Shown here: positions 4,126 through 26,262 of the stretch, piece by piece
How positions within the stretch are numbered: position 1 is the first letter of the stretch
Layout of the letters: the number at the start of each line of letters is the position of its first letter
From: Aggregatilineales bacterium
GTDB lineage: Bacteria > Chloroflexota > Anaerolineae > Aggregatilineales > Phototrophicaceae
Assembly (NCBI GenBank): GCA_030834905.1
Contig: JAUQWZ010000014.1
Coordinates: 1 to 64,000 of the forward strand
Direction of reading: 5' to 3'
DNA: 64,000 bases
Program-made: the position numbers and the translations under genes
The notes under the pieces: model-generated
Told to the model about the DNA's origin: nothing
The model's database searches: none
What the model saw: only the letters and a program-made list of their open reading frames with translations

Positions 4126-7100
4126 TCAGCACTCGCTGTAGCCGCAGGTCAGGCACTTCTTGCAGCCTTCGACATGCAGCAGCGAAATCGTGCCGCACGA
4201 CGGGCAGAGATCCGCCCCGACCAGATAGCCATGCCCGTGTCCGTTCCCGTTTGACAGGTACTCCGGCTCTTCGTCGGCGTCGCTGTCAGCGGTGGAGGCG
4301 ATCAATTCCTGCTGCACGAACAGGTTCAACTGCTCTGCCTTCTCCTGCGGGAAGAACTGGTCGAGCATCGCGCCCGCCACTGCGTCCGGCAGCGAAAATA
4401 CGCGGTTGGGACCCATGCCATACGAACGCGAACCGCGAATGTCCTTCAACTGATCGACGATCAGCTTCAGCATCTGCATCCGGTTCTGCGGCGCGGTCGT
4501 GCGCAGTTGCAGCGAGATCAGGCGTCCGATGCCTTCCGCGTCGGCGTGCAGGTCGCTGCCCGCCTTGCCCGGCGCGGTGATGAAGACCTCGAACGGATAG
4601 CCCTGTTCATCGGTGTTCATGGTGATATACGCCGAGCCGTAAGGCGTCTTGCAGTTCACCGTCACGCCAGTGAGCCGCTTGGGACGCGGATAGACATAAT
4701 GCGGCGTCGCTACCTGTTCCAGCTTCACAGACCGGGTTTCCGTCTTTTCCTTCACCTTCTCCATCTCACTTTCAGCGCGCTTGTCATCCTTGAGCATGAG
4801 CACCTGCTCATCACGGCTGCCATCACGATAGACAGTGCCGCCCTTGCAGCCGCTGTCGTACATGAATTCATACAGCTTGCGCGTCTCTTCGACGGTGTAG
4901 TTGTGGGGCAGGTTCGCCGTCTTGCTGATGCTGCTGTCCACCCAGCGCTGGATCGCCGCCTGCACCTTGACGTGCTCCTCGGGCAGCAAATCCATCGCCG
5001 TGACGTAGTAATCGGGAAGCTGCGTTTCGTCGGGGTGCTGCTCGTACCACTCTTTCACCAGCGGCACCTTTTCCTCGTGCAGACCGAGGCGGCTTTTGCG
5101 GTAGTACACCCACGAGAAGAACGGTTCGATGCCGGTGGATGTGTTGACCATCGTGCCGGTCGTGCCGGTCGGTGCCTGGGTGAGCAGGGTGACATTGCGG
5201 ATGCCCTTCTTGCGCACCTTGTCGCGAATGTCCTTCGGCATCGACTTCATGAAGCCGCTTTGAACGAATTTCTGGGCGTCAAACTGTGGGAACGCGCCCT
5301 TTTCTTGCGCCAGTTCCACGCTCGTCTCGTATGCCGCCCGGGTGATGAAGCCGTACAGCTTGTCGATGAACGCAACCGACTCGTCGCTGCCGTAGCGAAT
5401 GCCGAGACGGATCATCAGTTCCGCCAGCCCCATGTTGTTCAGACCCACGCGGCGCTCGCCCAACTGCTGCTTCTCATTTTCCTCGAAGAAGTAGGGTGTG
5501 CTGTCGATCACATTATCGAGGAAACGGGTGGCATAGCGCACCGCCTGGTCGAGGTCGTCCCACTTCACATCGTGTTTGGCTTCATCGTAGAACCGCGACA
5601 GGTTGATCGCGCCCAGGTTACAAACACCAAACGCCGGAAGTCCCTGTTCTCCACAGTTGTGAACCACTACGCCATTGGCAATGAACGAATGAGTCAGCGG
5701 CTCAGTCAGATCGAATACGTCCTCAACGCCATCTTCAGTAATCGATTCGACGGTCGCCATGAAGTATTCGGCGTAGGTGCCGCGTTTACCACGCGACACG
5801 TAATCCACCAACGCCTGCTGCTTGTAATCCATCATGAAGCCGATCTCGTCAGCAAACACGTTCATATTGCGCTTGCTAATAACCAGCTCGTGCTGCGCCT
5901 CACACCAATACTGCTTCAATTCGCGGTTCGTATCAGGCATCTGGCGATAACCAGCCTGGCGGCGATTGCGGTAAATATGGCTGGCAATGCCAAAGTTGAG
6001 CAGCAACTGCTGAACGCCTTCCAACAGCGCCAATTGGTTTGCAGCCAACCGAACGCTGCTGCCCTTTGCCCCGCCATCCTGGAAACTGCCGTCAGCCGTA
6101 AACACCGCCTGAAGGAAGCCGCGCTGCATTTCCTCGCTGCCCTTGAAGACAATCTCAGGAACGCGATGTTTCACCTCATTCAGACCATACTGCTCCGTTA
6201 TCTGAGTGAGGCGTGCCGAAGATACCCGCGCCTCATCGCGCGCCGTGATCTCGGTAACGCCGACGTTGTAAACCCGCGTCCGCTGTGACAATGGAGCAAT
6301 CAGCGAATTCACATGCTCCGCGAAAGCAGTCGCAAGCTCCTGTTTTTCCTCGCCAAAGAAGGACAGCACGACTCGGTCTTGCTTAATAGTGCCATCGCCA
6401 ATGACCCAGCCAAGCTCACGCCCCAGTTCAGACGAGCCTTCAGTTCCGAATCCACCCTTACGATTCAAAATGTGAACGCAATTACCGGGCACCAGATGCT
6501 GAAGCTCCACCCATCCCTTCGGAGTCATTACCCGATGATCGGCTGTGGCGCGGATAAAGTAGCCTTCCTTGGTTTGCAGACGATAGACCGCTTTCCTGCC
6601 TGTCAGAATGACACGAGATGCGGGCGTTGTCAGCTCAGCTTGCCCAAAGCGGGCATCAATCACCGGATTAACAGACTGCTCTGAATCAAACAGGTCGCGC
6701 GCGCGTTCCAAACCATTGGATGTATAAATGAGCGTATCGCCGGTCACGCAGGGGTTCGTGCAGATGATTGGCGCAAAATACCAACTGTTCGACATCTTGT
6801 TGTAGCGCTCGCGGAAGAATACGCCCGGTTCGGCGCTCGCCCACGCGCTGTCGATGATCGCGTTCCACACCTCGCGCGCCTTGACGGTGCGGTGATTGAT
6901 GACCGGATAGCCTTTCGCCGTCCATGCGTCGAGATCGCCATCCCACTCGTCGTCATAATTCGGGTGAGACGTATCCGGGAACACCAGATCCCAATCGCCA
7001 TCCGCTTTGACCGCTTCCATCATCTTATCCGACACGCCGACACTGATGTTGGCATTGGTAATCTTGCCCGCGGTACGCTTGCTGTTGATGAAGTCAAATA

Positions 7101-9090
7101 CGTCCGGATGCCAGTCGTTCAGGATAAGCATCAGGGCGCCGCGCCGCGAATTTGAGGTATACACACCGCTGCCACTCAGCAGGTGAACATCATCGACCTC
7201 AAAGTCATAAACATCGCTGTCGCCAATAGGTTCAATCGCGCTAATCTCATCTGGAATCGTGTTCAGGACATCCCGAATTTGCTGTGCCTGAACATGCTGC
7301 CCGTCTGTTTCCAATCGTTCTGATATTCGCCCCAACTGCGCGAACGAAATTCGCTCGCTCACACCATCATGAATACGCTGGCGATACTTTTCACGCGCTC
7401 CGAGCGATTTCCAGACAGTCACAGGATAGGTATTTTCTTCACGCTTGCCATTTGCTTCCGCCGATACTTTTTCAGCAGGCACAAAATTCGCAAAGCGCTG
7501 TTTGAAGCGATTACCTGTCACAGACAGACGATAAATGGTCTGCCAGCCCTGCTCAGAACGATCTGAAGCCGAAATCCGCGAAACGATGCCGTTGCCAGCC
7601 AAAATCTGCTGGACATCTGCCAGCATTTCCCGGCTGATGCTGTCAATGCCATATCCGCCTTTGCGCCCACGATTGCAGCCGTCAGCATCAAAGTAGCCTG
7701 CAACAAACGCGCCCTGCACTGACGACGGTGATCGGAAGATCAATTCAGGCACGCGAATGCTTCCCGCTTTTTCTTTGAGCAGCCCATTCGTGATAAGCCA
7801 TTCAAGCACCAGGCGTGAGTGCAGCGCAACGTTCTGGCACGCGCCATCCCCGTTTTCAATTGTCGGCTCGATGCTAAAGATATCGCGGATAAGCTGTACG
7901 AGGCGCTCGCGGATTGCCGGATGTTTGTCTGCTGTCGCCAGTTTCACCGCTTTTGGCGCTTGCCAGTTCACCTTTTTGCCGATATGCACATAACCATCGC
8001 CATACATATAGCCGATGAGATATGCCAGGTCTTCCGTCAGCAGTTCAGGCAAGCGTACATTTTCGTTCAGTGTCGTGCTCATGACGGAACGGTGATAATC
8101 AACCGGCTTCAACTCGACGTGCCGCGTCTGGACACCGTTCCCAAGCAGCAGCAGAATTTCGTCACCGGTTTCCAGATACTTCAGCGGCATGGTCGTAATT
8201 TTACCGTCCATCAGAACAGCGACTTTATGATCCTGCGTGATGCGCACTTTGTAACCACGCCTGGTTGTGACTTCGTACAACGGTTTCACGCCGTTACGGA
8301 AACGCGCGGTAATACGTCGCAGCCCTTTGTGCGTATGGGCGTAAATCGCCTCGCCTGCTTCAATACGGTCGGCAAGTTCCTGTGCCGGAATCAAGCCAGC
8401 ATTGGTCATTATGCGCTCGCCGGGACCAAAGCAGCCACCCTGCTCGATCAAGCCGGTGACAAAGCTGTAGAGCGCCCCCCACGACACCGCGCCGCTGGAG
8501 CGTCCGTTGACGCCCTTCACGTAAGCGTGGGCTGGGCGCAGGCTGGAAATATTGATGCCGACGCCGCCGCCGCGCGACATGATCTCGGTCATCTGCCGCA
8601 GAGTCTCGATAATGCCGCCGCGGCTGTCCTTCGGAGAGGAGATGACATAGCAGTTATAAAATGTGAGTTCCTGCTCTGTACCGGCTGCCGCCAGAATGCG
8701 CCCGGCGGGGACAAACTTAAAATCTTCCAGCAGCCAGCGGAAATGCTCTGCCCACTGCTCCTGGAGTTTGGGGGTCTTTTCAACCGCCGCAATCCCGCGC
8801 GCCACGCGATCCATCATCTGCGCCGGGTCGATTTCCAGCGGCTTATCGACATGTTCGACGGCGCGCGTCACGACTTCGCCATCCAGCAGTTCAACCGTCA
8901 CCTCAGGCAGCGCCAGCGCTTGGACAGTGCCGATCTCACGCTGACCCGTGGCAGGATTCACGACGATGATCACCGTATCACCGACCGCCAGCGTCTCGCG
9001 AGTCATATCCTTCTGGGCGTATCGGTCGAGAAATATCTTGTAGCCCAACTCGTGCAGAGCGTTACGCTTTTGGATTGGAGTTTCAACCAT
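4126..9090 (-). CDS. nrdJ: Class II (B12-dependent) ribonucleotide reductase with two inteins
   Basis: 1654 residues, of which about 861 are host protein. It reduces ribonucleotides to deoxyribonucleotides using adenosylcobalamin, so it works with or without oxygen. Host segments show NCYVISSPKDSRGG (Cys147, substrate-site cysteine), the NP-CGEQ active-site loop (Asn779 and Cys1146-Gly-Glu after splicing), GLNNMGLAELM and APTGTTGTMVNTSTG in the barrel, and a C-terminal CPSC...CKKCLTCGYSEC cluster that reduces the active site. Intein 1 (residues 220-647) sits between GLIEQGG and SRRGALM; intein 2 (781-1145) sits between IICTNP and CGEQGLP. The ATG has an AAGGA ribosome site about 10 bases upstream. 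No cobalamin-riboswitch or NrdR box was recognisable in 9091-9320. Confidence 0.95.
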   Translation of the reverse strand: MVETPIQKRNALHELGYKIFLDRYAQKDMTRETLAVGDTVIIVVNPATGQREIGTVQALALPEVTVELLDGEVVTRAVEHVDKPLEIDPAQMMDRVARGIAAVEKTPKLQEQWAEHFRWLLEDFKFVPAGRILAAAGTEQELTFYNCYVISSPKDSRGGIIETLRQMTEIMSRGGGVGINISSLRPAHAYVKGVNGRSSGAVSWGALYSFVTGLIEQGGCFGPGERIMTNAGLIPAQELADRIEAGEAIYAHTHKGLRRITARFRNGVKPLYEVTTRRGYKVRITQDHKVAVLMDGKITTMPLKYLETGDEILLLLGNGVQTRHVELKPVDYHRSVMSTTLNENVRLPELLTEDLAYLIGYMYGDGYVHIGKKVNWQAPKAVKLATADKHPAIRERLVQLIRDIFSIEPTIENGDGACQNVALHSRLVLEWLITNGLLKEKAGSIRVPELIFRSPSSVQGAFVAGYFDADGCNRGRKGGYGIDSISREMLADVQQILAGNGIVSRISASDRSEQGWQTIYRLSVTGNRFKQRFANFVPAEKVSAEANGKREENTYPVTVWKSLGAREKYRQRIHDGVSERISFAQLGRISERLETDGQHVQAQQIRDVLNTIPDEISAIEPIGDSDVYDFEVDDVHLLSGSGVYTSNSRRGALMLILNDWHPDVFDFINSKRTAGKITNANISVGVSDKMMEAVKADGDWDLVFPDTSHPNYDDEWDGDLDAWTAKGYPVINHRTVKAREVWNAIIDSAWASAEPGVFFRERYNKMSNSWYFAPIICTNPCVTGDTLIYTSNGLERARDLFDSEQSVNPVIDARFGQAELTTPASRVILTGRKAVYRLQTKEGYFIRATADHRVMTPKGWVELQHLVPGNCVHILNRKGGFGTEGSSELGRELGWVIGDGTIKQDRVVLSFFGEEKQELATAFAEHVNSLIAPLSQRTRVYNVGVTEITARDEARVSSARLTQITEQYGLNEVKHRVPEIVFKGSEEMQRGFLQAVFTADGSFQDGGAKGSSVRLAANQLALLEGVQQLLLNFGIASHIYRNRRQAGYRQMPDTNRELKQYWCEAQHELVISKRNMNVFADEIGFMMDYKQQALVDYVSRGKRGTYAEYFMATVESITEDGVEDVFDLTEPLTHSFIANGVVVHNCGEQGLPAFGVCNLGAINLSRFYDEAKHDVKWDDLDQAVRYATRFLDNVIDSTPYFFEENEKQQLGERRVGLNNMGLAELMIRLGIRYGSDESVAFIDKLYGFITRAAYETSVELAQEKGAFPQFDAQKFVQSGFMKSMPKDIRDKVRKKGIRNVTLLTQAPTGTTGTMVNTSTGIEPFFSWVYYRKSRLGLHEEKVPLVKEWYEQHPDETQLPDYYVTAMDLLPEEHVKVQAAIQRWVDSSISKTANLPHNYTVEETRKLYEFMYDSGCKGGTVYRDGSRDEQVLMLKDDKRAESEMEKVKEKTETRSVKLEQVATPHYVYPRPKRLTGVTVNCKTPYGSAYITMNTDEQGYPFEVFITAPGKAGSDLHADAEGIGRLISLQLRTTAPQNRMQMLKLIVDQLKDIRGSRSYGMGPNRVFSLPDAVAGAMLDQFFPQEKAEQLNLFVQQELIASTADSDADEEPEYLSNGNGHGHGYLVGADLCPSCGTISLLHVEGCKKCLTCGYSEC
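5656..6750 (-). mobile_element. Intein 2 of NrdJ, splitting the radical-cysteine loop
   Basis: 365 residues (781-1145 of the precursor). It begins CVTGDTLIYTSNG (splicing block A, Cys1), has block B as RATADHRVMTP, two LAGLIDADG endonuclease motifs (RELGWVIGDGTI near 891-902 and GFLQAVFTADGSF near 991-1003), block F VEDVFDLTEPLTHSFIANG and the classical end VVVHN with Cys as the first host residue. The host joint is NP|CGEQ, so the +1 nucleophile is also the thiyl-radical cysteine of the reductase. Confidence 0.93.
7150..8433 (-). mobile_element. Intein 1 of NrdJ
   Basis: 428 residues (220-647 of the precursor). It begins CFGPGERIMTNAGLIPAQEL, has block B ITQDHKVAVL, and LAGLIDADG motifs LAYLIGYMYGDGYVH (about 356-370) and GAFVAGYFDADGCN (460-473). 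The end is DVYDFEVDDVHLLSGSGVYTSN with Ser as the first host residue (SRRGALM). The usual penultimate His is replaced by Ser (Ser646-Asn647). The block F His is present in DDVHLL. Confidence 0.92.
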
Positions 9091-24864: not shown

Positions 24865-26262
24865 TTAATTATCTCCACACTGCACAGTGAGCTCATTTAC
24901 CCGCCGAGCAAGGTGTGGCTCCGCGCGATCACCAGCTAGTTCAAGGTAGCGCTCATAACTTTCCAGGGCTTCTGGACAATGCTCCAATCCAAAATACAGA
25001 TTGCCCATATTAGCGTAAATATCAAAACGTGATGGATCAATTTCGAGAGCATGTTGGTAGTCGGCGATGGATTCGTCAAATTGTTCATTACGTCGATAGA
25101 TTACGCCTCTGTTGGCATAGTGTTCGGCGTTTTGCGGCTCCAGTTCGATTGCAGTAGTTAAATCAGCGATTGCCTGATCAAGTTCCCCCATTGCACTATA
25201 AGTAACCCCACGCCCATTATAAGCATAGGCATATTCTGGGTTAATACGAATAGCCTCCTCAAAATCATCCAACGCTTTCTCATATTCGTCGAGAAAATAA
25301 TAGGCGCTTCCTCGATTGGTGTATACAAAATGTGGTTCAGGATTGTTGTAGAGAAGCGCCATTGTGTAATCGTCAACCGAATCTTCAATCCGACCTAAAA
25401 CATTCCGATACAATTGTCCCCGATTGTTGTACGCCTCTGTGTATTCAGGATCCAACTCGATAGCTCGGTTGTAATCGTCAAGAGCGTCCATGTAGTTAGC
25501 TGAATCGTTATTTGCCTCAGCACGACCAAAGTAGGCTACAGCATTGTCAGGTTCAAGTTGAATAGCACACGTGAAATCACTCACCGCTGCTTCATAATCC
25601 TCCTGTACAAGACGCAGTTCCGCCCTTCTCATATAGGCATTTGGATCATTCGGATCTGGCTGGACATCGCATTCTTCTCCAAGCGTTGACGCCAACTGAG
25701 TGGGTAACACAGTTGGTGATGTGGTTGGTGTCTCGGTCGCTGACGGCGTGTTTCCAGCCGCTAACACGGGCAAGCCAAAAACAATGAAAAGCGCCGCTAT
25801 TACGATCAGCGCACCAACTCCTGCCACCAGGGGGAGAGAAAAACTACCTTTACGCAGCCCAACCGCTTCAACTATCCGCGCGATTGCCTCATCCGCATAA
25901 TGATCCGTATATGGAATACCGCCATAGTCTCTTAATCCTGCCAATTCCGGCGGCACATGCTGTGAAAAATCAAAATTATCAGCGGTAAGCGGAACTATAG
26001 GCTTATGATTGGCAAGGGCAGTCTGAACTTCCCGCTGCACCCAGGAATCAGGATCGAGCGTATCGGGCTTAAGCAGGATGAGGAAATAATCGCGCTGTAA
26101 AATCTCTTTTTCAATAACGCTTGCGAAGCGCACAGCATTCAATGTTTCGACATCAAGAAATACATCTGCTCCCAGTGCTGTCAAACGAGCATGGACGAAT
26201 CGCGCCAGTTCACGACTGGACGCGCGACGGTAACTTAGGAAAATGGTCGGTTTATTCGCCAT
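24865..26262 (-). CDS. TIR-transmembrane-TPR protein
   Basis: 465 residues. An N-terminal TIR domain (about 4-135) starts PTIFLSYRRASSRELARFVHARL and contains FLDVETL and WVQREVQTAL with the candidate catalytic Glu78 of NAD-cleaving TIR domains. One membrane helix follows (about 143-168), then a Thr/Pro linker and at least seven TPR units (about 205-455, each with A.Y.NRG..Y). The TIR part would face the cytoplasm and the TPRs the outside. Such domains act in protein recruitment or NAD hydrolysis, often in defence. No effector partner or phage gene is adjacent. The gene is AT-richer than the flanking dcw and uvrC genes. Confidence 0.9.
   Translation of the reverse strand: MANKPTIFLSYRRASSRELARFVHARLTALGADVFLDVETLNAVRFASVIEKEILQRDYFLILLKPDTLDPDSWVQREVQTALANHKPIVPLTADNFDFSQHVPPELAGLRDYGGIPYTDHYADEAIARIVEAVGLRKGSFSLPLVAGVGALIVIAALFIVFGLPVLAAGNTPSATETPTTSPTVLPTQLASTLGEECDVQPDPNDPNAYMRRAELRLVQEDYEAAVSDFTCAIQLEPDNAVAYFGRAEANNDSANYMDALDDYNRAIELDPEYTEAYNNRGQLYRNVLGRIEDSVDDYTMALLYNNPEPHFVYTNRGSAYYFLDEYEKALDDFEEAIRINPEYAYAYNGRGVTYSAMGELDQAIADLTTAIELEPQNAEHYANRGVIYRRNEQFDESIADYQHALEIDPSRFDIYANMGNLYFGLEHCPEALESYERYLELAGDRAEPHLARRVNELTVQCGDN

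Follow-up and report, generated by a model that had tools for sequence, protein, structure and literature searches.

How could a ribonucleotide reductase gene that is interrupted twice, once directly before the codon of its radical cysteine, yield an active enzyme, and what are the two inserts that interrupt it? Both questions are raised by nrdJ in the window, i.e., the whole stretch of 64,000 nucleotides from an Aggregatilineales bacterium that was analysed here (GenBank assembly GCA_030834905.1, contig JAUQWZ010000014.1, positions 1 to 64,000). Our answer is that the inserts are very probably two self-splicing class 1 inteins with homing endonucleases, which reside in nrdJ as selfish mobile elements.

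The gene forms a single frame of 1654 codons (window 4126-9090, minus strand) with zero internal stops and sits on a 116-kb contig beside an ftsZ/mur cluster, with ftsZ located 461 bp upstream (Table 1). Removal of both inserts from the precursor leaves 861 aa. A preliminary description of this DNA had proposed two full inteins of 428 and 365 aa and a spliced product of this length; its coordinates and lengths proved exact, and the span it delimited, 5656-8433, comprises both inteins together with the 399-bp extein.

Table 1. Features of the intein-bearing nrdJ gene, in window coordinates
Feature	Position	Strand	Basis or residues
nrdJ precursor, class II (adenosylcobalamin) ribonucleotide reductase, 1654 aa	4126..9090	(-)	Open frame; Ribonuc_red_lgN/lgC, TSCPD, TIGR02504
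N-extein, residues 1-219, including C147	8434..9090	(-)	C147 aligns with T. maritima NrdJ C134
Intein 1, 428 aa, precursor residues 220-647, site G219/S220	7150..8433	(-)	Cys1, T66xxH69, Asn428, penultimate Ser, +1 Ser
Intein 1 LAGLIDADG endonuclease part, about residues 134-390	7264..8034, limits approximate	(-)	D146 and D251
Middle extein, spliced-protein residues 220-352	6751..7149 (399 bp)	(-)	
Intein 2, 365 aa, precursor residues 781-1145, site P352/C353	5656..6750	(-)	Cys1, T69xxH72, His364-Asn365, +1 Cys
Intein 2 LAGLIDADG endonuclease part, about residues 107-320	5791..6432, limits approximate	(-)	D119 and D220
C353 codon: intein 2 +1 splicing nucleophile and, by alignment, thiyl-radical cysteine	5653..5655	(-)	Alignment with T. 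maritima C322
C-extein, residues 353-861: C364 (aligns with T. maritima NrdJ C333), TSCPD, C-terminal cysteine-rich tail	4126..5655	(-)	

The host protein is a class II reductase by both profile and alignment. Pfam matches on the precursor comprise Ribonuc_red_lgN, Ribonuc_red_lgC (9.3e-108), TSCPD, two Intein_splicing and two LAGLIDADG_3 stretches, and against TIGR02504 (NrdJ_Z; cut-off 399.95 bits) the spliced protein scores 587 bits in one piece, while the precursor scores 542 bits in three. Alignment to the Thermotoga maritima NrdJ (1XJE) places the three active-site cysteines expected of this class, with C147, C353 and C364 corresponding to T. maritima C134, C322 and C333. In the T. maritima enzyme C322 is the thiyl cysteine, and C134 and C333 form the reducing pair. 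By this alignment intein 2 directly precedes the radical cysteine and therefore borrows C353 as its +1 nucleophile, as had been proposed at the outset. Intein 1 precedes S220 in GGSRRGA, which is presumably the substrate-specificity loop (cf. GGVRGGA, loop 2, of Escherichia coli NrdA).

Taken alone, each insert passed the intein_Nterm profile as well as the cut-offs of Intein_splicing (PF14890; 35.8 bits), LAGLIDADG_3 (22.5 bits) and TIGR01445 (24.5 bits), with 54.2, 74.2 and 43.9 bits for intein 1 and 36.5, 71.5 and 36.1 bits for intein 2, and the intein assignment of the preliminary description bears this comparison for both. The catalytic residues are invariant or nearly so over 17-31 alleles; C1, T66 and H69 of intein 1 and C1, T69 and H72 of intein 2 are invariant across the aligned alleles. 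The C-terminal junction of intein 2 reads VHN/C, with the penultimate His and with Asn followed by Cys. Intein 1 ends in TSN/S, where Asn is followed by Ser and a further Ser stands in place of the penultimate His, a residue that we treated as usual in inteins, not obligatory. The same Ser occurs in 17/17 aligned alleles of this lineage and is thus a lineage trait of intein 1 and not a sign of decay; the C-terminal intein profile TIGR01443 gave no match to intein 1.

Two LAGLIDADG helices, each with a terminal acidic residue, are present in both inteins. AlphaFold2 models, built from the window and related-locus sequences, reached a mean pLDDT of 89.1 for intein 1 and 93.2 for intein 2, and both inteins are predicted to fold as a Hint domain with a LAGLIDADG endonuclease. 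The top structural match of intein 1 was the TliVMA intein 7QSS, the matches of intein 2 included the TliVMA intein and PI-PfuI 1DQ3, and I-DmoI and PI-SceI were also found among the matches of the models. The earlier claim that both endonucleases are complete therefore stands by motif, with both acidic residues in each, and by predicted fold. We rejected the idea that one intein arose by duplication of its neighbour, as the two share only 35% identity over ~73 aa of the endonuclease.

Both inserts are absent from inteinless NrdJ homologues, in which GLIEQGGSRRGALML and TNPCGEQ are each continuous. Five empty NrdJ genes were found in the same genus, all with both junctions intact, which disposes of the possibility, raised in the preliminary description, that the segments are host sequence. 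The sequence, boundaries, motifs, predicted folds and empty sites are directly established.

Under the mechanism that we propose, each intein would consist of a self-splicing Hint domain into which a LAGLIDADG homing endonuclease is inserted, and the 1654-aa precursor would excise both to give the 861-aa reductase. For each intein, an N-S acyl shift at Cys1 would come first; the N-terminal part would then be transferred to Ser220 or Cys353, and cyclisation of the Asn and ligation would follow. C353 would thus provide the +1 nucleophile for intein 2 before it becomes the radical cysteine of the enzyme; the precursor is presumably inactive before splicing. At the DNA level, the endonucleases would cut inteinless nrdJ at conserved catalytic codons and then copy themselves in. 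We infer both splicing and endonuclease cutting for the two inteins, which, as selfish mobile elements, would need no regulatory role.

Across the order, an intein-domain match was obtained in 88/151 genomes and an NrdJ match in 149/151. The NrdJ genes were read from 80 fetched loci and, with sites numbered by the spliced window protein, have five insertion sites: A before C147, B before S220, C before C353, D at APTG/TTG and E at SISK/TAN. We counted inteins in 53 NrdJ frames from this family, which had been selected with a bias towards carriers: 18 held none, 13 one, 13 two, 7 three and 2 four, i.e., at least two inteins in 22/53. The preliminary description had called two inteins in one class II gene less usual; given these frames from a carrier-favouring set, and the multi-intein RIR1 genes that have already been published (PMC4071816), this cannot be maintained, and two inteins in a class II nrdJ are ordinary in this bacterial family. 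Within the genus (15 genomes, five of them empty) NrdJ carries between 0 and 3 inteins. The window genome, G087, G088 and G133 have inteins at both B and C, with a third at D in G087 and G133. An inteinless member of the genus, G009, is identical at 32/36 bp around site C, and a suitable homing target is thus close by.

Relatives of intein 2 numbered 379 in a scan of 84,980 species genomes, and the 80 that were kept come from Chloroflexota, Acidobacteriota, Halobacteria and other groups; the junctions inspected in this lineage lie at NP/C almost without exception. Intein 2 shares 68-69% identity with the alleles of G015 and G021, which belong to another family, whereas the host NrdJ proteins share only 38%; it is 59% identical to the allele of G029, and the host proteins of G015, G021 and G029 share 35-38%. 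Conversely, G140 has a host protein that is 78% identical, yet its junction holds another intein (26%), and in genus g31, where the host proteins are nearly identical, the site C lineage of G038 differs from that of G015 and G021. The host and intein trees conflict in line with these identity contrasts, on which we relied because an AU test of the family f1 alleles as one clade was too marginal (p 0.041). The horizontal spread of the intein 2 lineage is directly established. In two close pairs of this lineage, dN/dS of the endonuclease part was 0.06 and 0.12; dS approaches or exceeds saturation in almost all other allele pairs, and the window's own alleles are saturated, which makes their dN/dS uninformative. 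Taken together, the spread across families, phyla and domains, the NP/C junctions and the low dN/dS support working homing endonucleases in the intein 2 lineage. For intein 1, no cross-family spread was found and no close pair for dN/dS exists in its own lineage among the alleles compared; its close alleles occur only in NrdJ of the family f1 type and in one viral contig (60%).

Viral contigs (IMG/VR) carry relatives of both inteins. Viral NrdJ genes with inteins at both B and C were observed at L202 and L213/L252, and the site B allele of L252 is the one 60% identical to the window's intein 1. It is possible that NrdJ-bearing viral contigs are carriers between hosts.

Mobility of a lineage and recent arrival in one genome are separate matters. 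The closest alleles are 77% identical for intein 1 (the contig is doubtful) and 71% identical for intein 2, while host proteins among the nearest family members share 76-79%, and no near-identical allele of either intein was present in the sampled genomes. The nearest alleles are thus about as diverged as the host protein, and a recent arrival in the source genome is unsupported. The recent activity suggested in the preliminary description accordingly holds for the mobility of the intein 2 lineage and the constraint on its endonuclease, but not for recency in the source genome. The 77% allele comes from a contig of 5 kb that was assigned to a different family (G052) and encodes an NrdJ of the family f1 type; as it may reflect a binning error or whole-gene transfer, it was set aside as evidence of homing. 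GC3 is 0.56 in intein 1, 0.62 in intein 2 and 0.78 in the extein, with deficits of -0.23 and -0.16, and the deficit of intein 1 exceeds the mean at its site by about two standard deviations. The difference is, however, negative for 87/92 inteins of the data set, and intein GC3 tracks that of the host gene (Spearman 0.82); low GC3 is a general intein trait in the data set and was rejected as a strong sign of recent arrival.

These divergences, together with the lack of a near-identical copy among the sampled genomes, are also what speaks for reading the two inteins as old vertical residents that have kept splicing while their endonucleases are inactive in this lineage. We regard this as a serious but rather unlikely alternative, since each endonuclease here keeps both acidic residues, which the degenerate alleles of G087, G029 and G130 lose, the intein 2 lineage is spread across families, and five members of the genus are inteinless.

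Searches of the assembly (5.29 Mb, 63 contigs, 95.75% complete) for a second NrdJ, a class I reductase or a class III NrdD found none, and splicing of NrdJ is therefore probably required for DNA synthesis in the source cell. That no other reductase was detected, and that the catalytic cysteine is itself the +1 residue of intein 2, could suggest that the inteins are conditional switches, in which splicing of the only reductase is gated, e.g., by redox on Cys1/C353, and the enzyme is activated post-translationally. Conditional splicing of a mycobacterial DnaB intein is reported (PMC6195587). However, inteins are erratically present even within one genus, at 0 to 3 per gene, and divergent lineages swap at the same junction, which suits homing over a conserved switch, and we consider conditional switching very improbable. 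The narrower proposal, that splicing of intein 2 is a thiol- or redox-responsive gate on the only reductase detected and that the element has been kept for this reason in some lineages, likewise seems to us a long shot. That the inserts are artefacts of assembly or annotation, or domains of the host protein, can be practically discounted even though the assembly is unclosed, as nrdJ is one open frame within a 116-kb contig and adjoins the ftsZ/mur cluster there, inserts of matching position and length are found again in independent genomes and the empty alleles are continuous across both junctions.

As selfish inteins, the two elements represent a type of mobile element known from earlier work. 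The TliVMA intein (7QSS/7QSU) is the best structural match of both models, but it has a V-type ATPase host and shares 16-19% identity. PI-PfuI of Pyrococcus furiosus, which we take to be an intein of a ribonucleotide reductase that carries two, likewise combines Hint and LAGLIDADG and ranks high among the structural matches to either model, but at only 13-15% identity in the structural alignments. The NCBI model of long intein-bearing NrdJ, PRK08332, matches residues 47-365 of intein 2. The bnrdE intein of SP-beta family phages (e.g., NC_001884) also lies in a reductase large subunit and can be aligned with the whole of intein 2 (29%), although its host gene is class Ib and belongs to Bacillus phages. 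Inteins and introns in phage reductases have been reviewed, with examples that include a phage nrdA carrying two putative inteins and an nrdE that bears an intein and whose activity was demonstrated (PMC3653736). In a survey of halobacterial inteins, five rir1 alleles (rir1-b, -g, -k, -l and -m) are recorded as also present in bacteria, and BAL53207.1, a protein of an uncultured Chloroflexi, is entered for three of the rir1 alleles (PMC4071816). The intein 2 lineage, found in Halobacteria at the same NP/C, resembles these alleles in being shared across domains, but the window species and its alleles are absent from that survey (PMC4071816).

The locus is a clean, sequence-defined case of inteins on catalytic codons of an essential gene. 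Its surroundings outweigh the single case: one family has an NrdJ with at least five intein sites and up to four inteins, two of the sites fall on active-site cysteines (C147 and C353), and across the order at least three divergent intein lineages occupy the radical-cysteine junction, one of them ending in Asp instead of Asn. NrdJ in this group is a good natural system for following homing, loss and replacement.

Several further observations were made among these genes. Four inteins each (A, C, D and E) are found in the NrdJ precursors of L067 (G116) and L056 (G028), of 2525 and 2343 codons. The site A lineage (e.g., L045, L055, L067 and L078) lies directly before C147, the reductive-pair cysteine being its +1 nucleophile, and has a Ser-Asn terminus in 15/15 examples. 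A second site C lineage (L044, L046, L054, L056, L065, L075 and L083), ~26% identical to the window's intein 2, ends in Asp, with YVSFD or YVSLD before CGEQ, and the site C inteins of L055, L059, L067 and L084 end in Gln; in the literature library searched, no paper came to light that tests an RIR1 intein ending in Asp or Gln by explicit experiment. Shortened alleles of 294-295 aa with eroded endonucleases at L041 (G087), L043 (G110; the site C intein is 294 aa) and L072 (G130) represent a decay stage of the same lineages. In G127, the NrdJ gene is split between contigs C397 and C411 (L070 and L071), which end within its site C intein and share an overlapping part; this is probably an assembly break. 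Elsewhere in the source genome, dnaE carries an intein (contig C62, ~187.3-192.3 kb) and dnaB two small inteins with the endonuclease reduced or missing (contig C6, ~62.6-65.1 kb). In the window itself, inspection by eye suggests that the frame at 24865-26262 (minus strand) starts with a TIR-like stretch and continues with a transmembrane segment and then TPR-like repeats.
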